Below are positions 1,951 through 57,120 of a DNA stretch of 64,000 nucleotides, piece after piece (positions within the stretch are counted from its first letter, which is position 1; the number at the start of each line of letters is the position of its first letter). Location of the stretch: contig CAIIXF020000008.1 of assembly GCA_903813345.2 (NCBI GenBank), positions 17,778,822 through 17,842,821 of the forward strand, read 5' to 3'. Under the pieces are notes generated by a model, which was given only the letters and a program-made list of their open reading frames with translations, searched no databases and was not told the DNA's origin. The stretch is from Owenia fusiformis. Lineage: Eukaryota > Annelida > Polychaeta > Sabellida > Oweniidae. A program made the translations under genes and the position numbers.

Positions 1951-4900
1951 TTACACTGGCGATGAAGGGAGAGAACGTCTGAGTTTGCTGAGAATATCCC
2001 TGGCTGAAGGTGCCGAATCGGACGTCCAGCATTCCAATATTAAAGCACTAATCTGAAAAACAATAAGGTTTATATGTAGGACACATGTCACTCTGTACAA
2101 AGGTGAGATCTGGTTTTGAGATGTTTGACTTGGACGCCGAGTCGTGATCTGAGATAATAGGGAGGTAACGTTACACGTTTTAAGAGAACCTGTATACGTT
2201 AGCGTGTAATATGTTAACCCCGGGGATTACTGTTCTTCTTTTAATTCACTTTCTGGTGACCTAATTACAATTATTTTCCGTATACCTTTACTACTAAACC
2301 AGCCAAGCATGAACAGTACAAATGTGAGAACTTATCCACAGAGGACCATAATTCTACACGTATACGTACATTTAAAAAAACACCTGAAGGTTGAGTTAGA
2401 CATGGACGTGAACATGTGATATTTTGGCCCCAAGAGAGTGTTGTCCTTTCCACTTGTTAATGCAGGGATCAATTTCAATATTTTCTTCAACCCATCATAC
2501 CCAATCTGTTAAGTAAAGATCATGAAGGGAAAAGCTAGTGCAGAGGTGACCATAAATTTTCACATCCACGTTTTAAAAAATATTGCTTACGTAACCTCCC
2601 TGATGACTTCAAATAATCTAATATATTAAATCATTCTATAAGAGACTGCTTGATTAATTGTTGCACAAAAACTACGATTTTTATCAGTAGGCCTATCAAT
2701 TTTGGTCAACATTTATGATGATATATGTCCAGTTCATGCTACATACTTGATTGCCTATGAATCCCAGTTTGCCATGCACCTTCAGGAGCCCCATTATAAC
2801 ATCAAGATGGCCTGTGTCTCGAGAGAGGAGTGCCCGGGTGTCTAGGAGAGGGAACGTGTGATGAAGACGTTCACAATAAATTTGATGATAGTCTTCAATC
2901 CCTACAGCTAGTTCTCCAATGGCTGACTGCGCTAGTGCATTTTGTACTTGAAGTGGTAAAACCAACATATTTCTACGCTTTGATGGTTTAGGAGGTCTTT
3001 CGGGAGTAGTCGGTTCCTTTTCTTGGATGGATTTCAATTTGGTAGGCATTGCCTGTGAAGGTGTTAATTTTGCAGCTATTGCATTCATATTGTCTGTTTT
3101 AATTGGTGTAATTGTTGCATCATAGTTGGTGACGCTGTCCACACATGTCGACTTCATGCTAAACATACTGAGAGCGTCATCCGGGGTGAGGAGCCTACTA
3201 ATCATAATATCAGTGTCGATAATCAGAGAGTTAACGGTGCTAGCGTCAGTATGAGAGATAATACCAGATAGATTGTCCAGCGTTTGGCTACTGATGCTTG
3301 GGTCATTAATGAAGAAACTATCAACTGCCATTTCCCTGTACCTGGTTTTGTGTAGACTAATAGTGCGTTTTATGTCATCTGGCGTATCGTCTTTAACAAT
3401 AGCATTCAGGTCGGGAAGAAGTCTACGTTTGCTGCGTTTAGTTTTTGTCACGCTTGGACCACCACTACTCATGTATGCATTTTCCCGAGAGGTTGTATCA
3501 TACGGCTGAAAAAGGCTTTGCCGATTGTTTTGTACAAGTGGTTTGTCAATAGTTCCAGGCGTTCTTAATCCTATCGCCAGTTCAAATGACTTATTCAATT
3601 CGGTATTCTGATCTGAAGATTTTGCTGGAGTTCCTGGAGTCTTCAATCCAACTGCAATTTCAAATGATTTATTTAACATTTTCTTTTCAGGGTCCTCGAG
3701 CTCAAAATCAAGAGACATGTCGAATGATTCATTCAGGCCAATATCCGTCTCTATTGTAGTACCATTTAACAAAGCCGAGTCATCAAATATTAATTTGATA
3801 TCCTCTGCTGTTGTAGTCTTTTCAATGAGTCCAAGGGCTTCCAAGAGTGATTTATTCAGATCATTTTGTGAACTGTAACGCGCTGATCTCTTTCTGAATT
3901 GAAGTCTACGAGAAACGCCTACCTTTGCACTAGGGGTGTCAGTTATCTCAAGGTTGGCGTCAGAGATGTTTTCAAATGTGTCATTTATCACATCCTCATG
4001 CATAATATTTGATTGAGTGTTACTTATGTTTCCTATAGGAGACTTATATCCAATGGGAGATTGCTGTATATCATCTGTAATTGGCGATTGTTGATATTTG
4101 ACTGCAGTCTGGTTTAGACTTGATAGTGTTTCATCAGCCATTGGTATTTCTGTAAACGGTGTGGCACTCCCTGCTATATGTTCATAAATATCACTAAGAG
4201 GAGTTTCAGTACGTGGGGTCACACACGTCAGTTCTAATGTCTCACTTCCTTGTGATCTACTTGGAGTCCAATTGCTTGAACCAGGCGACCATATACTTGT
4301 GTTCTGTGTCGTATCAAACGTATTACAGTGGTCTGATTGGCTAGTACTAGCTTCTGTTGCAACGGGATTGTTTGTTTCTTTGATTTTGTGAGGAGTGGAA
4401 GCTATTATTGCATCAGTGTTGATTTTAGGTTCATCACCCGTGGATTCAAATATCTTGCTTGTATTTTGGCTATTGGTATCAGACTCGTGCATTGTGGCAT
4501 TCTTTTGTATTGCAGCAGGAGTAATCGTCTCATATATTGTGTCACACTTGGTGCTATCAAACGATTCATTGTTTCTTGTGCGATTTGGAAGATTGATTTG
4601 AGGTTCAATTTTTGCCATTGCTGTAGTAACACTATTATGTTCATCTGTATGTTTACTTAGATTATGTACACTATGGTCATCAGCAGTATGAATTATATTG
4701 TCTAATTTAGATATGCTTATGGTACCCTGTGAAGATGTTCCGAGGCCAGAATCATCGCTGGCTGTTGATGTGTCATTTCCTCTGATACTCTTGGAAACAA
4801 ATGAATTGAGAAGTGAAAAGCTATCATCTGAGCACGATTGATCATGCCTAGCTGCTGAATACACAGGGTCTCTATTTCTGGCAATATTTTTTAATTTAGA

Positions 4901-7614
4901 TGGTGTCTTATGCTTTTTCATTGCCTTGTTCTCCGTCTCGGACGTACTCAGGTCGGAATCAGGAATAAATGATTCATTGACGTGTCCAATCATGTTTGAT
5001 TTTTGGTTTGGTAAGTTTTTGGTGCTCTGGTGATTTGTTTGAACCGATGTTTCAGTTATTGGTTCTATTCCTATTGGAATTGGTGGTAAGGCCCTGCTTT
5101 GCATTGATGTAGCCCCCAAAGATTGAGTATCATGTGTAGTATTTGGTCCTTTATATGGGGTAAGGTCTAATTTAGGGGGAGTACAAGAAGAGTTGGTATC
5201 ATCTAAGAATTTTGGCATTTTAGGAGTTTTGGTGGTAAATAAAGGCTTATGGTTCATCATTCCAGCTAAAGATTCATTGTCACAGGATACATCCCAAGCA
5301 TTCATAACACTACGACTATTAGGTGTATTTGGGAGTCTTCTCTTTTGTTGACTTCTATTATCTTTGAAACAAGTTGGTGGAGTCAGAATACTGTTATTCA
5401 AAGGGGGTCCAAGGATGGTATAGCCATCGGGGGAATCATTTGACGGCTGGTTGGTAGCAGTGGATGCACGAGCATTAGTGGGTAGTTGTGAAGGAGGTAT
5501 GATGGATGGCTGAGACGGCCGCTTAGGCAATTGTCTCCTCTTGGCTGATGACCATGTAGATGCTGACGATATTCTCGATGGTGATGGAGAGTATGATCTT
5601 GGGAGGCCAGAAGTGAAATTCTGGGAATGCTGTGAAATAGATCCCACTGTATCCCGAAAGGAATTTGGGGAAAGAGAGTGCTGTGTTATAGACTTCGTTG
5701 TTTCATGAAAAGGATTCTGGGAATTAGACTGCTGTGATATAGATCTCGTTGCACCCCGATAGTCACGGAGAGTATTTTTCATAGGACTATGACAGCTAGA
5801 TATGACATCTGGTATAGGAGAGGGTTGGTGTTCATCTGAGCCACCTGCCTTCACATGATCAGCTACACGAGCATCAGGGTTATTTCTTTTTGCAGGTGTT
5901 CTCTCATACAGATTACCATCAGTTTCTCTAGTGTGTAGATGTTCAAGTCTAGTGTGCTCTTCACTTGTAACTATTTTATCCTTGGAGTCAGTTCCGTTGG
6001 GTTTCACGCCATGTCTGTGGTACGCTAATGAGGCCAACATCTCCAGGAGGATTAAGCCAAAAGATCGGACGTCAGGCGCATAGAGGTTTTGCTCCAGTGT
6101 ACTCAAACTGTCAATATATCTGAAAAGAAGGGGAAGAAATGAAATAATGTCCATATCATCAATTCCTTTTGTCATAGGATATAAATCCATTAAATGAATA
6201 TTCCTGCTTATTTTGTCTTTTTACAGAGTTCACAGTGTTTTGCGTGCACACTCAGTCCACAACAGTTTTGAGGAAATGCACAATCCATGTTTGTACACAA
6301 GAACTGTCCGGGGAATTGTCATAGTATGCAGATCTCGCAGATCCATCCACTTACCTACTAATGGAATAAAGCACAGCTACTGCATCCTTTCGTTGCTTAG
6401 GCAATCTTGGAACTTGCGCCTGGACCTCTTTACTTGCTTCAAAGTCACCAATTACCGCCTTAATTGTCAGGCTCTGAAACATACAGTATATGGGTATTAG
6501 ATAAAAGAATCACAGTCGATTGATCTTCAGTTCAATTGTGGAAGTGGAATTAGAGCAATATGTGGAATGCCAAATTGATGACAATCTCGAATCAGATATG
6601 TCTCCAAACAAGCAGATCCACGCTCAAACTTGTTGCGATAAATACAAATTAGTCTACGAGCATATGTCCTGGCCCCGTATGGATTTTCTCTAATAACAAA
6701 TGGTCTGAGGAAAGTAATTTATAATATAAAGTGAGGGGAGACTGATGAGGTCGATTGCCCGATGAATACAAATATGATAACATGTCAGGCCCGTAGCCAG
6801 CCCTCCATTCTTGGCAAAAACTGGCCACGGGCCTGTATGTAATTCAACCATTTACCCATCACTGACTCAACACACTCTATAATAAAGAATGTATACTGGT
6901 ATATTAAGGACCTTACCTCGAGTGATCCACCAATGAAAACGGAGCTACTGTTAAGGTTGTTGTGTAGGATGTTCAGCTCCCTGAGATGCGTTGGCGAGGT
7001 CCAGTGTGATAAGGTGAAGACTGGCTTCCGTCACCCTCCTTATATTGACCTGGAGGAAGTCCCGAAGACTGCCGTGTTCGTAATACTGACGACATATTAC
7101 CCTGGAATAAATAATTAAGACGATATTTTAGGTATGCCACGCCCTTGTTTTCATAAGTAAAAACGATATTTTGTAAAATTGTAGCAATACCGTAATGTGA
7201 TATTTTTAGGGGTTTGTATTGTCTTGTGATTTTGTTTCCCTTTGTGTATTTGAACAAATAAACATTTTACTTTTTCAAACCATCAAGTTAATTTTTTGAG
7301 AACACGATTCATTTAAAAATGACATTGAGAACTCTAAAAGGTTGAAAAATTAATGTTCTTTGAGGTGCGTACCTGCTATGTTGACTGATGCCATGCCCGC
7401 TGACCATTTCAAGAGCACCGCAAAAGTTATTCTTGTTCACCGCCCACAGGTATGTAGCTATATTTGGGTGTTCCATCAAACTCAGTTTGGACATTGCCCT
7501 GACCTCTTTGGACCAGTTCTGTCGTCTGCTTGGCTGGTAAATCTTCATAACTCCTTCCAGTCTCCTTCCTTGGTCGGTCTGCCATTGGACTCGGACTTTT
7601 AACACATCTTCAAC
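1951..7614 (-). CDS. Pseudokinase with a kinase domain split by a ~1,000-residue insert (5' end not found)
   Basis: Five phase-compatible exons are visible: 7373-7614, 6917-7101, 6355-6473, 2747-6119 and 1951-2052 (stop at 1951). They give about 1,340 residues without the N-terminus. The first exons encode an N-lobe: VMKIY with the beta-3 lysine, a KEVRAM alpha-C glutamate and HPNI. Next come a hinge (YYEHGSLRDFL), a catalytic loop reading LHNNLNSS in place of HRDLKxxN, and GDFE in place of DFG. Loss of the catalytic aspartate predicts an inactive kinase or scaffold. The fourth exon resumes the C-lobe (APDVRSFGLILLEMLA), runs through a Ser/Thr/Asn-rich, probably disordered stretch, and returns to a folded-looking tail (VQNALAQS, HTFPLLDTRALLSRD, GKLGFIGNQ). 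The last exon supplies the subdomain XI motif LILECW and ends SPV. The reading frame slips by one base near 6986 inside exon 2, which could be an assembly error or real decay. TEX14-like pseudokinases are one possible affinity, unproven. Confidence 0.75.
6786..6835. mobile_element. Minimal CAGGCCCGTAGCC-type element (50 bp)
   Basis: It begins CAGGCCCGTAGCCAG and ends CTGGCCACGGGCCTG, which are inverted copies. It lies in an intron of the pseudokinase gene. The same ends occur at 24929 and 37031, so this is the smallest member of a local non-autonomous DNA-transposon family, perhaps hAT-like. Confidence 0.5.
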
Positions 7615-7971: not shown

Positions 7972-8345
7972 AAGTCTTTTCTGGGTCACCGCGAATGGCA
8001 TGATTTCCTCGAGTCTCTTCAGTTGCAAGGCAACCATACTGGGACCGATTCGTGTCGTTCCACTACTGCCCTTGGTGGGGGCCCGCTACCATACTGTATG
8101 ACTCCCGGAGTCTACCAAAGCACGTTAGTGGAGGAACCAACCACAGTCTCACAATCTGTCTCCGACAAGAGCGGCCAGAGAACCAACCCATGCCAAGGGC
8201 CGGTATACGGTTGGACCTTCGGACCGGGTGTCCGTAGTGACAATGATCAACAACTCCGTACCTGGGGCTCGAACGCGGGACCTCCGTATCCCCCGGTACA
8301 TTCTACCACAGTCTAACCCACTCGGCCAAACTGCTCAGGTGTCTG
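7972..8345 (-). mobile_element. tRNA-derived SINE, copy 1 (~370 bp)
   Basis: On the minus strand the head reads TTGGCCGAGTGGGTTAGACT, an A-box like tRNA-Leu/Ser. It is followed about 45 bases later by GCGTTCGAGCCCC, a B-box. The body shares very high identity with an opposite-oriented copy at 42030-42415, ending near 'gaatggcatgatttcctcgag'. It lies just upstream of the first visible pseudokinase exon. Open frames across it are not genes. Confidence 0.8.
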
Positions 8346-10036: not shown

Positions 10037-10999
10037 CTAAGTCCCAATCAATCTCAAACTCACCTTCGGGGAAAGTTGCAATCTACTGAGAGAGTTCAAT
10101 GACTTTGGCACGCTTGATTTGATGGTATCGCTGTATATTGTTTCAGGCGTACAGCAATTTGTGTGTGGTAACCCTAAATGTAACGCCCAACCAACGCCAG
10201 AGTGGACCAATACAGCCAATGCTATAACTGCAGCTAACACAAGCTCGATTGTAGTGTTTCCACCTTCATCCAAAACGCTGTAACCAACTGTTAATGTGAT
10301 CGTTACAATTGTGGCAGCTAGGGTATCCAATCCTAAGGATATGTGTAACGTTTTCAGTGTTTGTCGTCTATACTTGTATCCAGGCTTTGAGGATGTCCGA
10401 TAGATCTTCCAGTATATCACCACAATAAGAGCTAAAGCCACAGTGTGCCCTAGCCACATGAAGCAAATAAGAAGAGTGGAGTATTCTGAGTTTGGTTCGA
10501 ACGGGAGTCGAAGAGGAATACACGTTATAGTAAAAGGTAGCTCACTTGTGAAAAACTCTAGATTTGACAATGGCAAGAACGTCAAGGTAGCAATAGTGAA
10601 AACTTCAAGAGAAATAATCAATATATAAAAGTAAACATAAATAGATCGGAACGTCAGTGACAGGTTAGTTCTTTGCCACGACAGAATCAGAAATCCCTGG
10701 GTCGCCACAGCGCAGTATAATCCCTGTAGCGCGAACAACGCCCCGTATCCTCCAACGCTACAGAGTGCTGCGCCATCCACTTGTCTATGCAATAGTACCA
10801 AGAAGGAGAATACGCCTAATAATATCCATATTGTATCTGTGATGCATTGATGTACTTTGATCGTTGTTGGATGGGCCTTCTGCTGTTTCTGCACCCTCAA
10901 TAGTAACAATAACGTGTTCAACACAATCCCTATTGCAGACAGGACACACAGTGCGTATATCGCACCAGATATAGTTTCTTCATTTTCGTTATCGCTCAT
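10037..10999 (-). CDS. Orphan seven-transmembrane receptor, single exon, 320 aa
   Basis: The ATG at 10999 opens a 320-residue frame with seven hydrophobic segments at about residues 12-35, 50-70, 80-107, 120-143, 175-200, 215-241 and 250-276. This is a GPCR-like topology with a short extracellular N-terminus. Cys80 at the top of TM3 and Cys160 in the second extracellular loop could form the usual disulfide. NTT at residues 248-250 is a possible glycosylation site. TM3 ends SWQR instead of E/DRY, and TM7 lacks NPxxY, so it is not a standard rhodopsin-family receptor. The C-tail (about 280-320) starts with a CC pair that could be palmitoylated and is Ser-rich. The intronless frame, full length and clear membrane pattern support a real gene; the ligand and class are unknown. 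Confidence 0.75.
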   Translation of the reverse strand: MSDNENEETISGAIYALCVLSAIGIVLNTLLLLLRVQKQQKAHPTTIKVHQCITDTIWILLGVFSFLVLLHRQVDGAALCSVGGYGALFALQGLYCAVATQGFLILSWQRTNLSLTFRSIYVYFYILIISLEVFTIATLTFLPLSNLEFFTSELPFTITCIPLRLPFEPNSEYSTLLICFMWLGHTVALALIVVIYWKIYRTSSKPGYKYRRQTLKTLHISLGLDTLAATIVTITLTVGYSVLDEGGNTTIELVLAAVIALAVLVHSGVGWALHLGLPHTNCCTPETIYSDTIKSSVPKSLNSLSRLQLSPKVSLRLIGT

Positions 11000-12800
11000 C
11001 TTGCCAATTCACATTTCAGTTTGGTGATCATTCCTATTCATATAGAACTTCACGTTCTCGACTAAACCCACCAAGTCGATTATTTTTATTACTCTTTCTT
11101 CATCCAATATAGTTTGTATGGTTCAGTTCGTCTTTTTGTTCCTTGGTTCACCATATTTTTGTTCATTCGCTATTCCTGATGATGCATCACTTATTTTCGT
11201 ATATTGTCAAGTGCATCCGTAATATCTGAGCAATTGTTAAAAGTCATTTTTCATCCACTATTTTTTAATTTCAAATGTCACTTTACATTGGTCTCTTTTG
11301 AAATATAGTAACAGAGTAAGATCGTAATATATAACGGATTACTACTTCTCACTTTTGTTGCCTCACAATGTCTCGCTGTGTTCAAACTAGCAGGCCAAAA
11401 GTCTCACAAAAACTCCACTGGCGTTCTATACTAATCTCTTAATACGGAATTTGATTACGATAAAGAAAACTAACAATTACGATCCAGCTTTTGTTAACTG
11501 TCATTTAAGATATTATTCCACAATGTTTATATACCTTAATACTGTGCTCTTGTACCTGGAATTAATCAGAAGGATCAATGGTTTAACAGAATTAATATTA
11601 TTTTTGAGATTTGCTAAGGGGATGTTGATTGCACTTATGTGTTGAATTACATTATTCGGGAGTCAGTCTACGTTGTATCTTTACAAACAGAGATTAAATA
11701 TTTGAAGACGGCTGGTGTATGGTTGTATGTTTTGTTGCTTTTGACAAGGGTTTAGTTACAGCAATGAAAATTGGGTTATAAATCCAAATAATAGGTCTTA
11801 AATTTGAGGAAAAGTTACTGACAAAGTTCTGAACTATTAATTGAACGTTACAGATTGTTTATTTTTAAATAATCTTTGTCAAAAAACCCTGAACGATATC
11901 AATTTCTCAAATCTTTGTAAAAAAGAAAAAATCGATGTGGTTTCACTCTTTACCATTTGTAGTTGTGCCAGACGTCATGGACTCGAACGACCGTTAACGT
12001 TCTTCTTTTATTTGGATATTCATATTCCGTTTGTCATTTTTTCACTTTCGCTGCTAAGATCCTTGTTCTAAATCGTTCCTTCTTCATTCATATACATGTC
12101 TACTCCAATAAGTTTTGCCCGCCTTTACGTGCTTCACTAAACAACCGGTAATAAAAAGTATAAGAGTCATACTCCAATGTATATATATCGCAAGAACTGG
12201 TTAAATAGTCACAAATCAGATTAAACTTATGAATTGCACAATAGTGAAAAATTAATAGAAAATATGAAGTATGATTTATGTAATCTTTGAATCTCATTAA
12301 AGGTTAACAAAAAGATTAATGGAAAATCTGATTTACTGGCAACTGCTTGGGCAAACACGTAGTTTGATGTTTGCATCAGAGAATATAGTAGGCCTGGAGC
12401 CATAATGGGTTACATACGGGCAACCGTTAAAGAAGTAACACCCTTTATTATGGTCATACTCTTCATAGTTTGTACGCATTAATTTTAGTGAATGACTATA
12501 CACTTTTAATAATCATTATATCAATCATTCAATGGTTCTTAATTAAGGGCCACATTATTGTGACATTTTTGGCGCAATGTGTCTGCTGGTTTGCATCATC
12601 AAAAAACGTTAGTCAAAATCTCCGTTCTGTCCAAGTGGCAGCTAGGGATAGAGAATGTAAAATGTCGGAATCAACCTTTTCAAAATTATAACAATTACAC
12701 TTAAAAAAATTCTCTTTAAAAAAAAAACAATGATATTATTGATTGTGAAGGTTAGAATATAAGACGTAGTAATGCCTAAGTTCATTAGAATACATAGGCA
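11000..12800. other. Gene-free A+T-rich stretch
   Basis: 5' flank of the 7TM receptor and beyond. Only short frames without splice support are present, such as low-complexity T-rich frames at 11841-12151. I see no structured repeat except scattered A/T runs. Confidence 0.4.
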
Positions 12801-15468: not shown

Positions 15469-16672
15469 CCCGGGGGGTTCACTGTGTACACAATTCGGCG
15501 GTGGTCCCTTACCAATTTGTCCAAGGAGCACGTAGGTTATCGCAAACAATTCCAAACGATTCTAACTTGAATTATGAATATTTTCTGATCATGAACATGG
15601 TTGTATCTTTTAGATCCATTCATTATCTTCAAGAAAAATATATATAATGATAATTAAGTTAATCAGACCTAAGTGATATTGAAGGGGCAATGGACCAATT
15701 AACATACTTTTTCAAAAATGTTGACCTAATTTTCACCAAAAATGCAACCTATTATTATATTGTTGAATGCATAATTAGAATGTGCTTTGAGACATGTTCG
15801 ATTTCCTAAAATTTGATTGCTCCAGGGACTTTAAAGATATTGAATTTGGATGACCAAAATGAACTGAAACCAATGAATAGCATGAGATTTTTCAATGGAG
15901 AAATAACATGGGGAACACTTATCTTGATGCAATTAAGTTTTTCTTTCAAGAACTATTTGATAGATCAAAAAATCTGTGAAAATGGGGTCAACATCTTTGA
16001 AAAGTGTGTTGATGGGTTAAATATCTCCGAGTTTGTTTGAATTTATTATTACTGTGCATAATTTTCTTTGAGATAATGAATTGATCCAAAAGATAAACTT
16101 GTCTTCATTGTCAGAAAATAGTCATAATCCAAGATATAACCTTCTGAAATTGTTTGCGATAACCCACGTGCTCCTTTGGATGTGTTCCCATACCAACCAA
16201 TGTAATGCCCAAAAGCCATACCAAATGTCAAAATATAAGACCAATGCCATACCAAATGTCTAAATATAGGACCAATGCCATATATGGCATATATATGCCA
16301 CATATACCAGTTATATGATTGGTCCAAAGTAGATTTTTTCCAGGGAAAAAGTTAATGTTTAAACTAAAGAAGGTCCCAAGAAAAAGGCAATTTTTGAGGA
16401 AAACGTTCCAAATCAACCTCAAATTAAGGATATGATGTGTAACTTCTAGACCAATGGCATACCACAAGTGTGAGGTTACATATTTTCCACAACCATTCTC
16501 ACACCAGAAAGTGGAAAAATACGACCATTGCCATACCTCAAAAGCCATAATGTGGAGGCATTCTCATATCAGTTCCCAAAATTCGGCTCCATTGCCATAC
16601 CAAATGTCAAAAAAGGTACCCCATGCGCGCCGAGGATCCCCGTCCAAGTTTATATACAGTGAACCCCCCGGG
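15469..16672. mobile_element. Outer inverted-repeat transposon (~1.2 kb) carrying a nested element
   Basis: The left end CCCGGGGGGTTCACTGTGTA and the right end acagtgaaccccccgggtg are inverted copies. The right half holds degenerate repeats of 'gccataccaaatgtcaaaa' (16200-16620). A different inverted-repeat element occupies 15520-16181. No transposase frame is visible. Confidence 0.55.
15520..16181. mobile_element. Nested MITE with ~90-bp inverted repeats
   Basis: The left arm starts tccaaggagcacgtaggtta and continues through 'ttatgaatattttctga'. The right arm (ending acgtgctcctttgga) carries the same words in inverse order and orientation. The loop is non-coding. It lies inside the 15469-16672 element. 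Confidence 0.55.
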
Positions 16673-16746
16673 TGTTGACTCTGTTACGGATCTTGAACAA
16701 AGCCCCCCCCCCCCAAAGCCTGGTCTTGCTGAATTTCATCATAATG

Positions 16747-18151
16747 CAGACTTGCCAACCTCCCGTTTTTCTACGGGAATCTCCCGTAAATTTTTTGTTT
16801 TTCCGTAAAAAATACCAAACTCCCGTACCGTTTTCTCCCGTAAAAATTCCCGTAAACTCCCGTACCGTATTTCTACTATAAAATCTCCCGTAATTTTTTT
16901 TAAAATATGGCCGTAAAATCTCCCGTATATTTGCCGAAACCTCCCGTAAAATCTCCCGTATCCTGGTATAACTCCCGTAAAATCTCCCGTATTCTTGGTA
17001 TAACTCCCGTAAAATCTCCCGTTTTCTGGTATAACTCCCGTAAAATCTCCCGTATTCTTGGTATAACTCCCGTAAAATCTCCGTTTTTTGCTGTCGAAAT
17101 CTATCGTATTTAAAAGGAATTTGACAAATTTGTGACCTTGATTATTGCAGGCACGCTTCTTTCTTTTACTCCAAGAAGGATTGGCTCCCATGGTTCACTA
17201 TCGATTCTTTCATAAATAACTTAAAAGTACTTCATTCCCATGATTCAAATTGCTTTTCTGCGATCAGTTCGGTATAAGTTTGCTCATCAAATGTTCACAA
17301 ACGGGGGCCAGCTCATATTCTGTCATACTTCTGTCGGGAGAATACATTTTGTTTTTATATGGCGCTAAACAAAATATTCCCGCAATATAAGGCGCATTAT
17401 GGGTAGGGACTGCTGTGAAATAATGAACGTAAGTGACATCTATCTTAGATTATAAGTTCTAATTAATTTATTAACTGCGCATAGTCATAATAATTTCAAC
17501 CAATTAAATCGCTGGATTTAATACCGTAAAGACTCCCGTTTTTTCAAAATCTACCGTAAAAACTCCCGTTTTTTCAGAAATCTACCGTAAAAACTCCAGT
17601 TTTTTAAAAATCTACCGTAAAAACTCCCGTTTTTTTCAGAAATCTACCGTAAAAACTCCCGTTTTTTCAAAAATCTACCGTAAAAATTCCCGTTTTTTCA
17701 GAATCTTCCGTAAAAACTCCCGTTTTTTCAGAAATCTACCGTAAAATCTCCCGTTTTTTAAAAAAATCTATTGCAAAAACTGCCGTTTTTTCAAAACCTA
17801 CCGTAAAAACTCCCGTTTTTTCAGAACCTACCGCAAAAACTCCCGTTTTTTCTGAAATCTTCCGTAAAAAAGTCACGTTTTTAAAATTTACCGCGAAAAT
17901 TACCTTTCTTTAAAAATTCCCGTAAAAACTCCCGTTTTTCAAAATCTCCCGTAAAAACTAAAGTTTTTTTCCAAAATTTACCGCAAAAACTCCCGTTTTT
18001 TTTAAATCTCCCGTAAAAACTACCGTTTTTTTCAAAAATCTCCCGTAAAAACTCCCGCAAAAACTACCGGATTTTGAAAAAAACTCCCGTAAAAGTACCG
18101 CAACTTTTTTTAAATCTCCCGAAAAATTTTCATTTTAGGTTGGCAAGTCTG
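16747..18151. mobile_element. CTCCCGT-repeat DNA transposon, copy 1 (1,405 bp)
   Basis: The termini are CAGACTTGCCAACCT and its exact inverted copy. They are flanked by TAATG on both sides, a possible 5-bp target duplication. The left third is tandem 'taactcccgtaaaatctccc' units of about 32 bp. The middle (about 17105-17520) is unique-looking DNA shared with copy 2. The right half is about 31-bp units of the form 'ctaccgtaaaaactcccgtt'. Long frames such as the Gly/Phe/Thr-rich one on the minus strand are translations of the tandem repeat. No transposase is present, so it is non-autonomous. Confidence 0.8.
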
Positions 18152-19633: not shown

Positions 19634-20700
19634 AGACTATTTACGGAGTTGAGTTTTATTCATCACTGGCACATTGCATTCTGATTTATCATAGTCCCTC
19701 TTTACCTAACGCTTTTCTGAACTATTCCAAAAGGATAGTAAAGGCTGTGGATCCTACAATGGGCACATTGTACTTGAATGGGAGTTTACTTACCTCTTAC
19801 AAGGACGTCTGTCAAAGCCCAAGTATCTGAGATAGACGTCCTTGCCTCTTACAACTGTGAAAATCCTCAGTATTATAGGTCTTTTGCCCCAGTAATGAAT
19901 GAATTAAAATACATGATTGTTTAGTTTGTACTTCATGCTTTTGTCACAATGATTTACAAGGCGACATGATCCGTCATAAATATTTCAAGTGTCCAGTCCT
20001 TAACACTAAATAAATAAGTTGATTTTGAGATGTTTTTATTCGAGCATTATTAAAAGGAACATTCTGACCGTAGATTGAACGACCGTCATTAGTACTGTGT
20101 GAAAATGCAACTTCCGGGTTGAATTCCAAGATACCTGTATATTTGCACGTTCATTTATTGGAAATGTGGAAATATGAATCAGAGCCAGGTTCCATATAAC
20201 TAATTATCAATCCTAAATAAATATTTACCTGAATCTGAGGTATAAAGGCGTCAACGCATCTCTAGAACGTCATTAAGTAGATCTTTTCATTTTGATACAT
20301 TAGGGATAACATTATATTCAATTCAAACCCGAATAAAAAGAAAAATTGTCGTAACGAGGAACAAGGTAAACATTAATTATTTCATACTATTTTACTCTTT
20401 TTATTCAAATACTATATTATATGAATTAGGTTTTGGTGAAAATATACGATAAATTAATTATGGTAATGGAAAATACTAAATTAGATAAGAGGCCTGGTAT
20501 ATTCCCTACATGCAAAATGAAGATATTTCATTAGGTTATGTTTCATATTAGCATAAAATGTCTTTCATATAGTTTTTGGTATTTCTAGTGTATGGTAATG
20601 TAAATGAAATATCGTTAGAAAAAATTATTTTGATGAGATCTGTTTTTGAATGACTTGAAATTGACGTTTTCTAGTTTCCAAATCAAATTAATAACAAAGT

Positions 20701-22387
20701 CAGACTTGCCAACCTCCCGTTTTTTACGGGAATCTCCCGTAAATCTTTTGTTTTTCCCAATCCGTAAAAAATACCAAACTCCCGTACCGTTTTCTCCCGT
20801 AAAAACTACCGTAAACTCCCGTACCGTATTTCTACTAAAATCTCCCGTAATTTTTTTTAAAATATGGCCGTAAAATCTCCCGTATTTTTGCTGAAATATC
20901 CCGTAAAATCTCCCGTATTCTGGTATAACTCCCGTAAAATCTCCCGTATTCTTGGTATAACTCCCGTAAAATCTCCCGTTTTCTGGTATAACTCCCGTAA
21001 AATCTCCCGTATTGTTGGTATAACTCCCGTAAAATCTCCGTTTTTGCTGTCGAAATCTACCGTATTTAAAAGGAATTTGACAAATTTGTGACCTTGATTA
21101 TTGCAGGCACGCTGGCTCCCATGGTTCACTATCGATACTTTCATAAATAACTTAAAAGTACTTCATTCCCATGATTCAAATCGCTTTTCTGCGACCAGTT
21201 CGGTATAAGTTTGCACACCAAATGTCCACAAACGGGGGCCAGTTCATATTCTGTCATACTTCTGTCGGGAGAATAGATTTTGTTTTTATATGGCGCTAAA
21301 CAAAATATTCCCGCAATATAAGGCGCATTATGGGTGGGGACTGCTGTGAAATAATGAACGTAAGTGACATCTATCTTAGATTATAAGTTCTAATTAATTT
21401 ATTAACTGCGCATGCGTCATAATAATATCAACCAATTAAGTCGCTGGATTTAATGCTCATGCGCGAAAAACCGAACCTAAAAATGGAACCTCACGCAGAT
21501 TATAAAAGTAAAGTAAACTCCCGTTTTTTCATAAATCTACCGTAAAAACTCCAGTTTTTTCAGAAATCTACCGTAAAAACTCACGTTTTTTCAAAATCTA
21601 CCGTAAAAACACCCGTTTTTTCAGAAACCTACCGTAAGAACTCCCGTTTTTTCCGAAATCTACCGTAAAAACTCCCGTTCTTTCAAAATCTACCGTAAAA
21701 ACTCCCGTTTTTCAAAATCTAAAGTAAAAACTACCGTTTTTTCAAAAATCTGCCGTAAAAACTCCCGTTTTCTCGAAATCTACCGTAAAAACTCCAGTTT
21801 TTTCAGAAATCTACCGAAAAAACTCCCGTTTTTCCGAAATCTACCGTAAAAACTCCCGTTTTTCCGAAATCTACCGTTAAAACTCCCGTTTTTTCAGAAT
21901 CTACCGTAAAAACTCCCGTTTTTTTCAAAAATCGACCGTAAAAACTCCCGTTTTTTCAGAAATCTACCGTAAAAACTCCCGTTTTTTTTAAAAATCTACC
22001 GCAAAAACCCCCGTTTTTTCAAAGCCTACCGTAAAAACTCCCGTTTTTTCAGAACCTACCGTAAAAACTACCGTTTTTTCTGAAATCTTCCGTAAAAAAG
22101 TCACGTTTTTAAAAATTTAGCGCGAAAATACCTTTTTTTAAAAATCTCCCGTAAAAACTCCCGTTTTTTCAAAATCTCCCGTTTTTTCAAAATTTACCGC
22201 AAAAACTCCAGTTTTTTTAAAATCTCCCGTAAAAACTACCGTTTTTTGAAAAATCTCCCGTAAAAACTCCCGCTTTTTTTCAAAAAACTCCCGCAAAAAC
22301 TACCGGATTTGTAAAAAAACTCCCGTAAAAGTACCGCAATTTTTTTTAAATCTCCCGAAAAATTTTCATTTTAGGTTGGCAAGTCTG
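20701..22387. mobile_element. CTCCCGT-repeat DNA transposon, copy 2 (1,687 bp)
   Basis: It has the same CAGACTTGCCAACCT inverted termini and the same three-part layout as copy 1: left 32-bp units, a shared unique middle at about 21060-21510, and right 31-bp units. It is flanked by a perfect 7-bp direct repeat, ACAAAGT (20694-20700 and 22388-22394), which is the likely target-site duplication. The right array is longer than in copy 1. No transposase frame is present. Confidence 0.85.
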
Positions 22388-22399
22388 ACAAAGTTCAAC

Positions 22400-24480
22400 A
22401 AACGACAAATCTGGTGTTGTCGATGTTTTTATTCGAAATATCGTCTTGACCGATTTCAAGAAAAAGCCGTCTCAACAAACAACAAGAAATACATAAACAT
22501 AACACGTAACAACGTCAACACGACAATACAGGCAGGTCGACAATGTAGTGTAAGTCAATGACTTCTTGAAAACCTCTCATTGGTTTGAACACTACTTTAA
22601 TCGTTTGATCAAATAAATATCACGATTAGTCTTGTCTCAAGGCCCAATGCCTCACTTCCTTTCTGTTTTTATTTAAGTTATATACTGAATGAGGTGAAGA
22701 TGCATGCTTAAGTTAAGATCATGTTGTTCAAGATTATGTCAATTAATGTGATGTTAAATGAAAGACGTGCCATGATATTTAGATAATATAAATACCTTTC
22801 GGAAAAATCATTTTTTGAAAGACTTTTGGTCGCACACTACTGACTGATAACGAACCTAAAAAAGTAGAGTAAATCATAAACTCACCCCCTCCTTAAGGAT
22901 AACTGATAACTAGCAGCAGAAGTAGAAAAATGCCACTTAAAAGTACATATCATATTTAAGTGAACTCCAGATAAACATTTTTGTTGTAAACAAAAACAAT
23001 TAAGAATTCAGAAATGTACTATGGGTGCTATAAATCATTTAGGTACACGTATTTGCAAAACAGTTAGTCCATCCAAATAAAGATTAAAATAGAGACTATC
23101 TTGGAAAGCCAAAGGTTGGGCAGGTTAAGTTTTTTTTTTATCAAAGCTGGCTCGATGTTCAACTATTTAGTTTGATATTTCATTTCCTGACTACGACTGT
23201 TGGTGGTGGGTTATTTACCTAGAAATCGTTGGCCTTTTTCGGTAACACCACCAAAAACATAAATAAACATACCAAAAACGCAGAAAAACGACGATTGGTT
23301 AAAACATGTCTCAAGTTGCTGTTGATGATCAATCTAACTCAAAAAGTAAAAGTTAAATCTAAGAATTTTGATCTTGAGCAATTGTTGAACATGTCAATAT
23401 ATAAAAATATATAAATACGTGCCACCCGAATCGGGTTATAAGAGAAAAATACATTTACATTTGCGGCTATACAGAAATAACGATACGCACAAAATCAATT
23501 CAATTCAAGTGAAATAATTCATTTTACGTAACTATAGCAATACGTTAATAGCAAAGGAATAAAGGTAAGTTCGTTTAATGTTTCCATGATAACGTTGTAG
23601 AAAAGGTCAATTTAACATACATACTTTTATGGTATGTAATAGAAAACTAGGACATTTCTTCGTCCTAGTACAAAAAGCGACAATTTTTCTTCGTCCTTGT
23701 ACAAATTTAATGTTGTACTTAATAATTTGAAATAAAACTAGTTTTATGACATTTAATTATTTCGGACCTTTTTTAGATAATTCATATAACCATATTTTAT
23801 ATACGATTAATATATAAATAAATATATATATATGATATTAGGTATAATGCCGTTTTCATCTTTTCCCTTAAGATACCACTAAAGGTAAAAACACTTAAAG
23901 CCAGATCTAAATCAAATTAAACATGATTGCGAATATGAAATAATCCAATTGCAATTTAAAAGTCCTCTAGATGGCAAAAATAAACGCAGGCGACCCCTTT
24001 TATTCACAAGAACGGGAAAATGTTGTATTACCTACCACCACTCCCGCCATTTCAAAATGAATTAAAATCGATATTCGGTACCACTTGAAAGCTTTTGCCA
24101 GAAAGTAAGGTGAAAACTTGGTCAATGAATGGAACGTGTAACTGGAAATTTTCTTTGAACTATTTACAGAACGAAGGGGTAGAAAATCTAGTTTTTAGAG
24201 TTTTTCTCCGGAGTTTTCCGAGTCTAAACCGATCGCTTGAACCACGATGATTATCTTGTAAACGTAAAACTCACACATTGATCTTATATCTCATTTAGTT
24301 CGCTCAAGCTAAACGAGAAATGATATAATGAGTCCCGCAACATCAAAAAATGAGTTGTGAGAAAAACCAATCTTAGAATATTCACTGTCATTTTTGAAGT
24401 GACCAGAAATTGTTTTTCGTCGAGCTCAATTAAAGATATCTGTTGATTAACTAAAGTTTATCACTATTTAAGGAAAAGTA
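22400..24480. other. Upstream region of the dispanin gene; no gene seen
   Basis: About 2 kb of A+T-rich DNA with many short frames but no splice-supported exon. A 5' non-coding exon of the dispanin gene may lie here, because an acceptor-like 'cgtttcag' directly precedes its ATG. Confidence 0.4.
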
Positions 24481-24491
24481 ATCCGTTTCAG

Positions 24492-26950
24492 ATGGACAAT
24501 GCACAATCGGTAGATGCCACAAACAACGACACTAAAACCACTGAGGACAAAGAGGTAAAACCTCCACCATACAGCGTCGCGGAGGCTTCTGGGACATCAC
24601 CCCCTCAACTAAATGGCCAAGCAGGGGCGCAATGGAGTCAAGCGGGGCAACAATATGGTCAAGCCTGGCCTCAGCCTCAATATTGCGAAAAGGGGGCTCT
24701 ATCTGGTCCAGAAGGACTTGAATACGGTCAACCATATACCGGTAACCCTGTGAGCTACGCTGCGGAAACAAATCAGGTCGTCATCACAACGCAGCCAATG
24801 CAGAATGGGATGGCTGTGAATGTCGGTGCCCCACCACCCGACTATCTCGCCTGGTCTATATTTACAACAATTTGTTGTTGTTTCTGCCTTGGTAAGTGAA
24901 GCCATCTTGATCCATCAAGTAAACATATCAGGCCCGTAGCCAAGATTTTCCAAGGGGGGAGGTCACTTTTTAAAGAAATCCAGGGGAGTCCAAAAATGGC
25001 CCAAATCACTAGAAAAGTGCTCAGAATGATGAAAAACTGCATGATTGTGAAAGAATTTTCGGTCAGGGGGGGGGGGGAGTTCGCTCGAACCACTACGGGT
25101 GCATATTTGTTACGCGGTAAACACGATACAAAAATATGTCATATTCCGCAACGAATATGGCATATTCACTTGCGGTGTATGACAGATTCACCTGCGGTAT
25201 ATGGCATACAAACTAACCAATGAGAACGTGATACGGAAGTACGCAATTGTCAATTGCATCGATTGAACGAAATAGTAAAACGTTATTAATTATTGTAATG
25301 ATTACTGAATCAACAGTACTGTGTATCGAATATATTAACTTAGCAGAAGTACCAGTCACCAATCTCGCGTAATAAACTTACTCAATCAATCCAGGATTCA
25401 TATATTAGTACTCGACGCACTAACTATAATGGTAAAACAGCGTAGTTTTACATTTAGAGTCGATTCTCGCAACCAATCAAATCAAGGCTTTATGTATCAC
25501 GTTTTCACCTGCGGTATATGTCATATTCACCTGCGGTATATGGCATATTCCGCAAGTGAGTATGACAAATTCCGCAGGTGAGTATCGGGTATTCCCTGAA
25601 ATCAATGTATCGCATATTCACTGCGGAATATCGCATACTCACCTGCGGAATATGCCATATACCGCAGGTGAGTATGGCATATTCACCCGTATCACAAATA
25701 CCGCGCAACCATGAATGTATGCCATATACCGCGTAACAATATTCATGACTTAAGGAATTTAACATAATGAAGTGAAGCAACATTTCATCATTCAATGTAA
25801 ACTTCTGTTGAGTTATTTATGTTATTATTGCTTTTGTGACACTTTTATTGCAAAATCATGCAGTAACCGGATCAACAATTTCGTGGAACACTACTCATAA
25901 AAAACATTTTCATGACTCAATGAATGAAATATGTTATTTGTGGATAAAACATCTTGAACTTTATTTTACTTGTTCTAAGAAATTATTTTTTCTGATTCAA
26001 GTGCCTAATATACGACGGAAAAGTATTTTTAAATTGACAAATGGCACCCCAACAGTTCAATTTCTAGTCTTCCTTCAAGACCTTGTGAAGTTTATCGATG
26101 GTGGAGGAGGTCTTGTTAAAAATACAACTCACTTTTCCAATTTTTCACTTCACAATCTACAGTAAAGTGAATCTTCCGACTTATTTCAGTTTCCCTCCTT
26201 CTTATGGAACCATACTCCGCGCGTTCAGACCCTACTTACAGCCCCAGTGGTCTTTTCATTTCATTCTTTTAATTTAAGCATTATATACTTGACATCAAAA
26301 ATACATTGTAGTTGTGTCCGATCATGGACTTTCAACTAGAGGACATTAATAGCTAACGTTTACATAGTTCAATAGACGATTTTAAGCTGCCAGCTTGAAA
26401 ATTCCTTTTTCAAGCTCCCTTTTCCCTATGCATATGCATTGAAAATTGGAACCAAATCAGTCAACTAGCTAGTCCCATGAGTTATCAAAGATTTTATTTT
26501 CCGAAAAATGGTGGCCATTTTGAAATTCAGTGGCCATAATGAAAATTGCTTCTTGAGCAGAGGTCCTACGGCTTAAGCCTATATCAAATCCGTCAACCCG
26601 TATTTGGGATACCATGATCCGGACACACGAACGGACGAATTGATTCTCTATATCCCCCTCGAACTTCATTCGTTGGGATAATTGAAAATATTTAGGATTA
26701 TGAAGGATGATTACAAATGAAGAAATATTACAGCTATATGTAGCCCTTTAATTTCAATTCAAACTTTGCAGGTATTGCAGCCATCGTGACATCTATGAAA
26801 TCAAGAGATTATGCTCGGGCAGGGGACGTGAAGAGAGCACAGCAAAAGAGTATCACTGCAAGGAACCTGAATTTTGCAGGCATTGTTATTGGACTCATAG
26901 CAATTGTTGCTATTGTAGTGCTAAGAGTCATACTACCGATGACTCTCTGA
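24492..26950 (+). CDS. Dispanin / CD225-domain (IFITM-like) membrane protein, 192 aa
   Basis: Exons 24492-24891 (TGCCTTG/gtaagt) and 26772-26950 (tttgcag/GTATT) join in phase. The N-terminal 114 residues are Pro/Gln/Gly-rich, with PPPY at 24-27, a possible WW-domain (NEDD4-type ligase) docking motif. The CD225 domain follows at about 116-190: PPPDYLAWSIF, a Cys cluster CCCFC (potential palmitoylation), the loop SMKSRDYARAGD, KRAQQKSITARN and a C-terminal transmembrane helix. Known members such as IFITMs and PRRT-type proteins sit in plasma, endosomal or synaptic membranes and influence fusion or trafficking. The intron falls right after the Cys cluster, the position I recall for vertebrate IFITM genes. 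An antiviral role here is not shown. A poly(A) signal lies at 27932. Confidence 0.88.
24929..25104. mobile_element. CAGGCCCGTAGCC-family element in the dispanin intron
   Basis: The left end is CAGGCCCGTAGCCAAG. The interior (gtcaaaaatggccca, poly-G near 25070) resembles the copy at 37031. The right end has decayed to ccactacgggtgc. Non-autonomous. Confidence 0.45.
25103..25743. mobile_element. Inverted-repeat element built of CCTGCGGTATATG palindromes
   Basis: The ends are ATATTTGTTACGCGGTA and its near-perfect inverse. Near the left end, and densely at 25500-25700, words such as CACCTGCGGTATATG and CATATTCCGCAGGTG alternate. They are reverse complements, so the region is a chain of overlapping palindromes. 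A unique 300-base stretch separates the two groups. It lies in the dispanin intron. Confidence 0.6.
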
Positions 26951-40558: not shown

Positions 40559-40806
40559 TAATCACTGTTCCACAACTAGTATAGTTACTTTGACGGAACG
40601 TCAATGGAACAAAATGGATGAACTTCCTGGTTACGAATTTTTTGCTCTCTCGATTTATACCTACTGATAAGTCAAGTTGCAGATTATAATTTGGCCCAAA
40701 GCTAGAAAATATAGCCTTGTTTAGTAAGTTTCTTCGATTTGGAATTTGTTTGGTAAATGAAGCTGTAATTCATATACTAAGGCACTAAGCCCCTCGCATC
40801 TTTCTA

Positions 40807-41290
40807 ATGGGTAGTCCGGTTTCACCTGTGCCGTTAGCCAACATTTACATGGAGTGGTTAGAGGAACAAGCCATTGCCACAGCGCCCCCAGGTTGTTCCC
40901 CGTCATTGTACAAAAGGTATGTAGATGTTGTACTAGAAATTGTTGACAACGACCACGTGAATGAATGGACAAATCATATGAATTCTATAGACGTTGTGAA
41001 GTTCACAGTAGAAAAAGAATCAGAGGGGAAACTGGCTTTCTTAGACACGCAACTTAACAGGAATTCGGATGGTTCAATTAGATGTACTGTAGAAAGAAAA
41101 CCTAGCCACACAGATCAGTATTTAAACTTTCAATCCAACATCCTCTTGAACACAAAATGTCGGTAATTTATAACGTTAATAGGAAGAGCAGATTCGATTT
41201 GCAGTGAACAGGGGGACAGAGTAGAAGAAACGTCAAATGTTAAAATAGCATTCGAAAGATGCGGTTATCCAAAATGGACTATTCTTTTTT
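40807..41290 (+). mobile_element. Broken Penelope-like retroelement fragment (reverse-transcriptase core)
   Basis: The translated segment carries hallmarks I associate with Penelope-like reverse transcriptases: GSPVSP, LANIYMEWLEE, a KRYVD palm motif, the 'hIxF...GKLAFLDT' block, then KPSHTDQYLNF and, further on, 'FERCGYPKW'. Only the palm and thumb portion remains; no endonuclease domain or complete frame is visible. It is a fossil with several breaks, probably long inactive. Confidence 0.75.
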
Positions 41291-42029
41291 TTTTCATTTA
41301 ATTTTCCATTTTTCCCCTAAAAGACACAGGAACGTTTTGAATGTAAAGCAGATACAAATAAGGACAAGACAGAAATAAAAAAGGTAGTAACCATACCCTA
41401 TGGGAAATGCTAACTGCTTATCGCAGGGGGTAAAAAGAAAGAATATATTGTGGATTTTGAAGCCCTGTGATCGGAGGATGAAATATCTTGAATACTTTGG
41501 AACTGAAGTACACTGAGTTCCTTAAGAGGTCGTTCAGTTTTCTTGTTTTTGTTCTACACAACACTTGTGTTTAATAGCCACGCGTAATTATTAATAAGCG
41601 TATCAGATTATTTCAAGCGTCGAAATAGGTTATTTTCGTCGACGTATCTACACAAACCTATTCACTAATTACCGTTATATTGAGCTATCTAGATGCGTCA
41701 ATAGTAATTGTTTTCACTCATCGGCTTTAGTGGCCCGCGATACCTTTTATTCCATCCATTTGAGACGCAATTGATATATTGGCAACAATGAAAATGAAAT
41801 GATTCTTCTTCATTTTGGAATGTTTCTCCTACCCGATATTCAAATATGTGTCTTCTTGTACTTTCTGTCTTTACGACTCCCGTTCACATTTGCAAGAGTT
41901 GTTGATTGCATTGCCTTGATCGTTGGTCAAACTTCAATTCCAACTAAATCCGATTAATCAATTAAGAAATGTAATTATCATGTTTATCTAAGCAAATAAT
42001 TGTAACAACTACATTATTTTTTAGCAGTT

Positions 42030-42415
42030 TGACACCTAAGCAGGGTAGCCTAGTGGCGTAGACTGAGGCTACTTTGCGGTTGAACGTCGTGGGATACGGA
42101 GGTCCCGCGTTCGAGCCCCAGGTACGGAGTTGTTGATCATTGTCACTACGGACACCCGGTCCGAAGGTCCAACCGTTTACCGGCCCTTGGCATGGGTTGG
42201 TTCTCTGGCCGCTCTTGTCGGAGACAGATTGTGAGACTGTGGTTGGTTCCTCCACTAACGTGCTTTAGTAAACTCCGGGAGTCATATAGTATGGTAGCGG
42301 GCCCCCACCAAGGGCAGTAGTGGAACGACGCGAATCGGTCCCAGTATGGTTGCCTTGCAACTGAAGAGACTCGAGGAAATCATGCCATTCGCAGTGACCC
42401 AGAAAAGACTTTTGC
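42030..42415 (+). mobile_element. tRNA-derived SINE, copy 2 (~385 bp)
   Basis: Plus-oriented copy of the 7972-8345 SINE. The A-box region is GGTAGCCTAGTGGCGTAGAC and the B-box GCGTTCGAGCCCC. The body 'acggagttgttgatcattgt' to 'gaatcggtcccagtatggtt' is nearly identical to copy 1. The tRNA-like heads differ more than the bodies, which may mean subfamilies with different heads. Confidence 0.8.
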
Positions 42416-55159: not shown

Positions 55160-56183
55160 TGAATGGAGAATGAGAGGAGAAAGTAAAAGAAATATTGTAA
55201 CATTCAGTATTTGTGAGATATATCTGATTAACATTCAACTAACTGCAAATAAATCAGAAAAAAACATATTTGGCCAACAGCTGCTCTGGATGGTCCAATA
55301 ATCTTCATTATACATGACGATTCTGATCTACATAAATAATCCAAATAGAAAAAGCGTAAACTCCAAATATATGGCAGATCGTAGATAACCTTTGAACCCT
55401 AGTATTTGCTCCGTAACACATATTCCGGAGACCCTTAAACTCAAAAGAGAACACAATATACTGCCCATAGAGTACATTCAACATTTGCCCTATGTTTTTT
55501 TATTATTTGTTTTGAAGCTTTGCAAAAAATCAGTTGATTTTGGGATGATATATGGGGTACTGGTGAACACAGGTGATATGAGGGGCAGGGGGTTGCTCCT
55601 TTTTATATTGGGTTCGAAAAAAATTTTTGTTTAAAAATAAATTCAAGAAATACTCCTGATAATAATCTTGATAAAGGAGAAACAATAGAAATTTTGATAG
55701 TCATTACCCTAAAACACTACTTCTTATAGAGTCAAAACCAAACCCCTAAAAAGGATAATTCTCAAAACCCTAAGAATTCAAATGAAAAGGTTGACATCAT
55801 TTTCAAAGGTTACTTACTGCATGTACAACATCTGGGGCTTGAGTCGATATAAAACAAACACACAAAAAGTTTCTCAGTTTGAATGAAATATGTTTTACCA
55901 AGGTTTGACCTTTGATATAATTAATATATTTGATCTTGGCTACTGAATCTTTTCATAAAAATGTGTTTGTTTTGTTCTTGCGAGAAAAGATACACAATGG
56001 AATCCTAAAGTATAACAAAATCCAATTTTTTACCCTATTTATGGACAGAAATCATTTTCATATTTTTTGTCGTAGCAAAAATTGGATATCATTGCATCAA
56101 CGCCATCGATGTACAAAAATATTACATTACTTAAAGAATGCATGTGAAGAATATTTTAGTATCCCTGTCTTTGTTTAAAATAA
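55160..56183. other. No gene seen before the assembly gap
   Basis: A+T-rich DNA with short unsupported frames. Confidence 0.35.
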
Positions 56184-56683
56184 NNNNNNNNNNNNNNNNN
56201 NNNNNNNNNNNNNNNNNNNNNNNNNNNNNNNNNNNNNNNNNNNNNNNNNNNNNNNNNNNNNNNNNNNNNNNNNNNNNNNNNNNNNNNNNNNNNNNNNNNN
56301 NNNNNNNNNNNNNNNNNNNNNNNNNNNNNNNNNNNNNNNNNNNNNNNNNNNNNNNNNNNNNNNNNNNNNNNNNNNNNNNNNNNNNNNNNNNNNNNNNNNN
56401 NNNNNNNNNNNNNNNNNNNNNNNNNNNNNNNNNNNNNNNNNNNNNNNNNNNNNNNNNNNNNNNNNNNNNNNNNNNNNNNNNNNNNNNNNNNNNNNNNNNN
56501 NNNNNNNNNNNNNNNNNNNNNNNNNNNNNNNNNNNNNNNNNNNNNNNNNNNNNNNNNNNNNNNNNNNNNNNNNNNNNNNNNNNNNNNNNNNNNNNNNNNN
56601 NNNNNNNNNNNNNNNNNNNNNNNNNNNNNNNNNNNNNNNNNNNNNNNNNNNNNNNNNNNNNNNNNNNNNNNNNNNNNNNNNNN
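56184..56683. other. Assembly gap: 500 N
   Basis: Exactly 500 undetermined bases, a round number suggesting an arbitrary scaffold gap. The right edge begins in 'tgtgtctattgagcctt' repeats, so a tandem repeat may have caused the break. Confidence 0.95.
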
Positions 56684-56685
56684 AA

Positions 56686-57120
56686 TGTTTGTGTGTCTAT
56701 TGAGCCTTGTGTGTCTATTGAGCCTTATGTGTATGTAAGCTCTCCTTTGAGCCTATGAAGCACTCTTATGTGTCTTCTGTCCAAGCTTTATACCTTAATT
56801 GTAACTTGTTATTCACATAAGTATTAGGTATTATTAAGTAACACACAAACATTTGTTTGACTGTAAAGAAATAAACACATCAAATTACCAATGTCTATTA
56901 TCTGGTAGTCAAATATATACTGACTTTTACTGTATAAGTCCTTTTGTGTCTTAATGTTGTGTGTACTTATATATAACCTTCATGTTTAACATTTTCCTGT
57001 GTGTCTATGAAAACTCCTTGTGTGTCTGCATGAAATGTCAACTGTTTCCCATTGGTTATATTTTGTGTTACCAATTACTTCTGTGTCTTATTTTTGTGAT
57101 TTCAATTTAACCTTGTGTTT
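56686..57120. repeat. 'TGTGTCT(A)TTGAGCCTT' repeat tract beside the gap
   Basis: The words 'tgtgtctattgagcctt' and later isolated 'tgtgtct' or 'tgtgtctta' recur about ten times with growing spacing. Probably the edge of a longer tandem repeat hidden in the gap. Confidence 0.45.

Follow-up and report, generated by a model that had tools for sequence, protein, structure and literature searches.

An annelid gene predicted to encode a pseudokinase whose C-lobe may be split by a disordered insert of about 1,030 residues

We describe here a gene on the minus strand of a 64,000-nucleotide stretch of Owenia fusiformis DNA (the window, positions 17,778,822-17,842,821 of CAIIXF020000008.1; positions below are those of the window) that is predicted to encode a pseudokinase of an unusual architecture. 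As encoded, the protein probably, although by no means certainly, has a kinase C-lobe that is split by a disordered loop and completed afterwards by helices H and I: the chain would leave the fold after helix F into a loop of about 1,030 residues and would re-enter it through a probably helical segment leading to helices H and I, which the last exon encodes. With its catalytic residues lost, the kinase fold would act as a binding module, and the loop might serve as a multisite phosphorylation platform for a mitotic kinase of the Polo or NEK6-7-9 type through its repeated N-x-S-F/L sites.

The gene model was assembled from open frames and splice sites and has five exons (Table 1), separated by introns of 271, 443, 235 and 694 bases (5' to 3') whose donors are, in order, CAG/GTACGC, GAG/GTAAGG, TAG/GTAAGT and CAA/GTATGT (the slash marks the exon end), with donor scores of 4.8 to 7.0. 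The large fourth exon, 6119-2747, consists of 1 nucleotide and 1,124 codons; its own frame is free of stops (the other two frames contain 135 and 69), and it ends with the last of these donors at 2747. The final exon, which is preceded by TTGTTTTTCAG, joins it in phase 0 and contains 33 codons followed by a stop, encoding ISALILECWTSDSAPSARDILSKLRRSLPSSPV-stop. When the 62 AG sites between 2746 and 1501 are ranked by pyrimidine content the acceptor at 2052 ties for third place with two others; the top-ranked acceptor, 1955, leads into another frame, and the second-ranked one, 2148, would give the same frame and the same last exon with 32 additional residues. Codon scores are 234.6 for the large exon, 20.3 for exon 1, 12.1 for exon 3 and -4.0 for exon 2, which is partly read out of frame (below). 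AATAAA signals lie at 1289, 1150, 934 and 263, and ATTAAA is present at 1663. The first-pass annotation of this DNA had these exon edges, phases, sequence and placement right, and the phase-0 junction of 2747 with the last exon that it described is seen in the sequence. No second copy of the locus was found in the assembly (498 Mb in 525 contigs): the large exon and exon 2 as DNA each gave one match, and exons 1-2 as a protein query gave two, both of which are pieces of this locus. The gene is thus single-copy in this assembly. Split genes and the kinase and ankyrin families of the genome agree with an animal source.

When the exons were joined, with the two frames of exon 2 linked by X, the Pfam profile PF07714 matched at 37.6 bits (cut-off 23.1) over profile positions 32-199 of 258, a score above the curated cut-off that places the product in the protein kinase superfamily; PF00069 reached 30.0 bits, below its cut-off of 31.7. 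The Pfam kinase alignment ends at helix F. No single exon passes PF07714 (the first frame of exon 2 has an expect value, E, of 0.031), and exons 1, 3, 4 and the last, each run alone against Pfam, match no kinase. Among the sequences of solved structures there were 113 distinct matches at E <=1, and the 60 listed include TYK2, JAK2, PERK, A-Raf and MLKL at E 0.001 to 0.06; TYK2 is the best of these (E 0.001, from two weak stretches combined), followed by JAK2, PERK and A-Raf, with MLKL lower. Kinase identity, which had been proposed from the letters alone, is therefore confirmed up to helix F by a significant PF07714 match.

The HRD, DFG and APE motifs, the beta-3 lysine and the helix C glutamate have well-established roles in kinases. 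In the translation and the alignments the beta-3 lysine is kept in GVMK and the helix C glutamate in SKEV, and the helix F motif DVWSFG has its equivalent in DVRSFG; the catalytic-loop sequence HRD-L-K-x-x-N is replaced by HNN-L-N-S-S-S (translation ILHNNLNSSSV), DFG is replaced by DFE, and RYIDSL stands where RYMAPE is expected. The residue set of an active kinase (HRD Asp, catalytic-loop Asn, DFG and APE) is thus not present in the translation. Because HRD, DFG and APE are all degenerate, we predict that this TK/TKL-type protein is a pseudokinase. This loss had gone unnoticed in the first-pass annotation, as had a break in the reading frame of exon 2, whose translation is ...LHLITLDLANA in frame with exon 1 and LRELNILHNNLNSSSVFIGG in frame with exon 3. 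Against a profile made from 16 kinases of the same genome, the kinase parts in the two frames separately score 8.3 and 6.8 bits, each matched by 1 of 3,000 shuffles (cut down to its first 40 residues, the second part scores only 0.6 bits, matched by 62 of 3,000), and the composite in which the two exon-2 frames are joined with XX scores 22.4 bits. Judged by the alignment spacing, about 8 bases net are missing near 6987, ahead of the catalytic loop. The idea of a frame-restoring mini-intron within exon 2 was dropped by inspection, as such an intron would delete clear kinase helix E sequence.

Lying between helix F and the tail, the insert comprises 1,029 residues, among them 135 S, 111 T, 77 P, 73 N and 73 D (31% S/T/N; 68% disorder-promoting residues), so that the earlier claim of a Ser/Thr/Asn-rich insert of about 1,000 residues, open and in the same exon as kinase sequence, holds. 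By the usual charge-hydropathy boundary formula it lies mainly on the disordered side, with exceptions near composite residues 700-850 and 1000. Its direct repeats are few, namely a 48-nucleotide pair (75% identity, 78 nucleotides apart) and five families of shorter repeats. The motif N[EK]S[FL], first spotted by eye and then tested, occurs 7 times in the insert (mean of 500 shuffles 0.106, maximum 2). There are 4 copies of the longer form LN[EK]S[FL] and 6 of N.[ST]F, and none of 2,000 shuffles equalled either count. Two of the seven N[EK]S[FL] copies sit in the 48-nucleotide repeat pair and are for that reason not independent. More generally, Asn at position -2 of [ST]-hydrophobic occurs 11 times where 3.95 are expected, a count that 1 of 1,000 shuffles reached; neither Asp (6 vs 3.93) nor Glu (1 vs 2.53) is enriched there, so sites of the kind expected of a PLK substrate are in excess in their Asn form alone.

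A review (PMC10177174) gives L-N-X-[S/T], N-X-S/T and [S/T]-F as variants of the PLK1 motif, and another paper (PMC6570481) states that Nek6, Nek7 and Nek9 share the PLK1 motif and that this Nek group selects Asn at -2. The insert motifs fit this PLK1/NEK6-7-9 consensus, which makes them putative sites for such a kinase, and we infer that the N-x-S-F/L sites would be phosphorylated. The same genome has 5 Polo-box matches at E <=0.001. The motif array keeps a role in cell division plausible, and we regard that role as rather doubtful all the same.

Does the chain return to the kinase fold after the insert? We used 17 kinase segments of the same genome to build a home-made profile that spans helices F to I, and 5,000 shuffles were used in each test (for the last exon 4,801 of these were reported, the remainder being counted as lower). 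The last exon scores 8.2 bits at profile positions 60-85 of 88, and none of the 5,000 shuffles equalled it; the last exon plus the tail scores 6.3 bits (1 of 5,000), and the last exon plus the last 24 tail residues 8.1 bits (0 of 5,000). In a six-frame ranking of the 1,105 stop-to-stop segments of at least 30 amino acids in the window, the last-exon segment came first with a score of 7.3 (next 5.1). The composite, insert omitted, rises from 22.4 to 25.7 bits once it is extended by the last 24 residues of the tail plus the last exon. These matches are short, and they suggest that the last exon likely encodes kinase helices H/I; helix G is presumed to lie within the tail, and we infer that the two C-lobe parts would pack together. 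The return to subdomain XI that was noticed in the first-pass annotation is thus upheld by a home-made profile that beats chance, although Pfam reports none, and an interruption of the C-lobe between helix F and helices H-I has sequence and splice-site support, although the recognisable returning C-lobe is only about 26 residues long. The description of the tail as folded did not fare as well: the tail shows no kinase signal, and a single-sequence model covering the 90 residues at the end of the large exon shows three helices, with a predicted local distance difference test score (pLDDT) of 58 and a predicted template modelling score of 0.32, too low to use. The tail was also tried as an ankyrin-like domain, and this likeness is at chance level (E 13; designed ankyrin protein E 2.6).

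Several results weigh against the split-fold architecture or against the phosphorylation platform. At the 3' end, Pfam gave no kinase match for the tail plus last exon at E <=1 or for the last exon at E <=10, where the hits were unrelated noise; taken by itself the tail scores -3.5 bits, which 3,309 of 5,000 shuffles equalled or bettered; and the last exon has a slightly negative codon score (-4.8). When the organism's own genome was searched with PF07714, the locus was not among the matches listed (158 at E <=0.001; 133 of 752 candidates scored). In the sequence upstream of 7614 no kinase glycine loop was found by consensus tblastn, by scanning codons and splice sites as far as 30 kb, or by Pfam in open reading frames of at least 30 amino acids up to 15.95 kb, and, as assembled, the protein would stop 11 residues past about 6987, inside the C-lobe. 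The Polo-box docking sequence S-[ST]-P is not enriched in the insert (1 vs 2.3 expected), and in a blind gapped-pattern scan the top pattern, NESF, had a statistic of 14.1 where the top values of 300 shuffles had their median at 8.2 and went up to 14.4 at most; because that maximum exceeds 14.1 the motif array, clear as a tested hypothesis, is borderline as a blind discovery. The missing Pfam match and the low score of the tail would also fit a truncated pseudokinase that ended at helix F, the tail and last exon forming a separate small helical domain whose likeness to subdomain XI was fortuitous. In agreement with this, the tail plus last exon has no relative among the PDB sequences either (two unrelated chance matches), the alignment in subdomain XI needs a two-residue gap and loses the conserved Arg, and the model of the tail is helical, albeit at the low pLDDT given above. 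A fortuitous likeness would, however, have to score above every one of 5,000 shuffles and take first place among 1,105 segments, and the joint alignment gains 3.3 bits with the parts in the correct order; we consider a kinase that ends at helix F unlikely.

The frame break bears on a different explanation, in which the locus is a recently decayed pseudogene and the protein is cut short in the C-lobe because exon 2 lacks about 8 bases. The break is present in the sole copy found in the assembly and the 5' exons were not found, but the other four exons are intact (the 3.4 kb open frame included) and their splice sites usable. On this sequence a pseudogene would look the same as an assembly error or a heterozygous allele, and with a single copy an assembly error cannot be judged from another one. 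We think it fairly improbable that the gene has decayed. It is also conceivable that splicing takes out all or part of the insert as an exonic intron (exitron), leaving a main protein with an ordinary C-lobe. A splice scan of 400 bases at the start and 450 at the end of exon 4 did find a donor at 5845 (CAG/GTGGCT) in phase with acceptors that would start an exon at 2946, 2841, 2817 or 2811, the first of these one base into the first tail codon. This donor is weak (4.7, vs 4.8 to 7.0 for the donors of the model), such donor-acceptor pairs presumably arise readily by chance, and the insert is open and its exon scores as coding. This is the explanation we find least credible. The probabilities that we attach to the split-fold architecture and to the other explanations overlap, because a pseudogene, or an orthologue of TEX14 (below), is compatible with that architecture.

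TEX14 has a kinase-like domain that is taken as inactive; the first-pass annotation named it among the pseudokinase families to compare and speculated about a germ-cell or cytoskeletal scaffold. An invertebrate TEX14 orthologue would account for a degenerate kinase with a long disordered region, and a flatworm kinome paper (PMC4669435) names a Tex14 gene and cites TEX14 as Plk1-regulated. Moreover, the same genome has a CEP55-type EABR segment (C5:32440022-32440099, minus strand) that scores 27.4 bits against a Pfam cut-off of 25, the other two matches being below it. This segment sits in a coiled-coil frame containing NTRWQHYNKQRDQFV, which gave 5 matches at E <=1 among solved structures, a ribosomal protein being best (E 0.091) and CEP55 second and third (E 0.21); the segment may belong to an invertebrate CEP55, or to a relative that carries a similar motif. 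On the other side, no ankyrin repeats were detected by Pfam in 59 of the 65 listed minus-strand open reading frames of at least 30 amino acids between 7.6 and 15.95 kb (the other six lie inside the receptor-like frame described below), nor by consensus tblastn of the window, and the genome's best ankyrin matches (E <=1e-12) are not at this locus (150 of 1,406 candidates scored). The CEP55-binding sequence GPPxxxY occurs 0 times in the 1,029-residue insert, the part of the gene scanned for it, which contains one GPP without the Tyr. In a report on pig TEX14 (PMC3248578), ankyrin repeats at 1-99 are followed by a kinase-like domain at 154-466 aa in one uninterrupted stretch, and a review (PMC9669650), which gives the binding motif as AxGPPx3YxPP, describes TEX14, CEP55 and the CEP55-linked intercellular-bridge pathway as mainly vertebrate. 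Because no ankyrin repeats or CEP55-binding motif were seen in the stretches scanned, we do not file the gene as TEX14, an assignment that we judge improbable, and the scaffold idea is not supported by that route. The fullest form of our proposal, a split-fold Polo/NEK phosphorylation platform with a role in the cell division of invertebrates, perhaps within a CEP55-linked intercellular-bridge pathway, is likewise a long shot. The locus is more interesting as a split pseudokinase with an array of putative phosphorylation sites than as a TEX14 candidate.

Long inserts are known in several kinases: Greatwall/MASTL has one in the activation segment, CDC7 has inserts up to subdomains X-XI, SRPK has a spacer, and in PERK and GCN2 the insert is in the N-lobe. 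The Owenia gene resembles these in having a fold interrupted by long disordered sequence; it differs in that the site is after helix F, the insert is about 1,030 residues long, the protein is a predicted pseudokinase, and insert and kinase sequence share one exon. With TK/TKL kinases (PF07714) it has in common the order of motifs from the beta-3 lysine to helix F and then helix H/I, and the sequence matches to JAK/TYK2, PERK, A-Raf and MLKL; it departs from them in HNN for HRD, DFE for DFG, the loss of APE and of the subdomain XI Arg, and the roughly 1,030 residues after helix F. It shares with TEX14 a kinase-like domain (PMC3248578) and a possible cell-division setting with a Plk1 link (PMC4669435), whereas here no ankyrin repeats or GPPxxxY were found and the disorder is inside the kinase rather than after it. 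Our literature searches found no account of kinase inserts between subdomains X and XI and nothing relevant on pseudokinases with a large disordered C-lobe insertion. If the fold closes over the insert, this would be among the largest kinase C-lobe insertions that we know of, at a site after helix F; it would show how far the kinase fold tolerates interruption, and it would provide a concrete scaffold with predicted mitotic phosphorylation sites that can be tested. If the frame break is real, the locus would be a record of a pseudokinase being lost.

Table 1. Features of the predicted pseudokinase gene (window positions)
Feature	Position	Strand	Remarks
Exon 1 of readable part	7373..7614	minus	Kinase N-lobe: GVMK with beta-3 lysine, SKEV of helix C; within the joined PF07714 match
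Exon 2	6917..7101	minus	YYEHGSLRDFL ... LDLANA in one frame, LRELNILHNNLNSSSVFIGG in another; contains the frame break
Frame break	6985..6989	minus	About 8 bases missing relative to kinase spacing
Exon 3	6355..6473	minus	DFE replacing DFG; activation segment
Exon 4, 5' end	6035..6119	minus	RYIDSL at the APE position, then helix F DVRSFGLILLEML
Disordered insert, 1,029 codons, in exon 4	2948..6034	minus	Predicted from composition, charge-hydropathy, open frame and codon score
Seven N-[EK]-S-[FL] motifs	3584..5278	minus	N codons start at 5278, 4978, 4570, 3856, 3733, 3673 and 3595
67-residue tail	2747..2947	minus	Probably helical; helix G presumed here
Last exon	1951..2052	minus	Likely kinase helix H/I (subdomain XI), and stop

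Several other features were noted in the window. The receptor-like frame mentioned above is an intronless frame of 323 amino acids on the minus strand at 10037-11008 that has by eye the look of a seven-helix receptor; its Pfam match is sub-threshold and at chance level. An interspersed repeat is shared by 7990-8330 and 41962-42264 on opposite strands (the same translated stretch), and its end resembles a tRNA-derived promoter, although a search of the window with ARAGORN gave no tRNA. A block of short tandem repeats, which translates as GRFYGSYT / KTGVFTVDF units, is present in two diverged copies that occupy 16650-17194 and 20615-21162 (minus strand) and 17554-18134 and 21601-22370. On the plus strand, a proline/glutamine-rich frame at 24447-24899 ends in what looks like the first part of a CD225 (interferon-induced transmembrane) domain, at 25.8 bits against a cut-off of 27.1; an open frame at 40789-41166 with GSPVSPVPLANIYM ... 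YVDV resembles a reverse-transcriptase fragment; and a frame of 247 amino acids at 42805-43548 matches a methyltransferase (Methyltransf_11, E 4e-8). The interval 56180-56700, perhaps an assembly gap, is a run of N.

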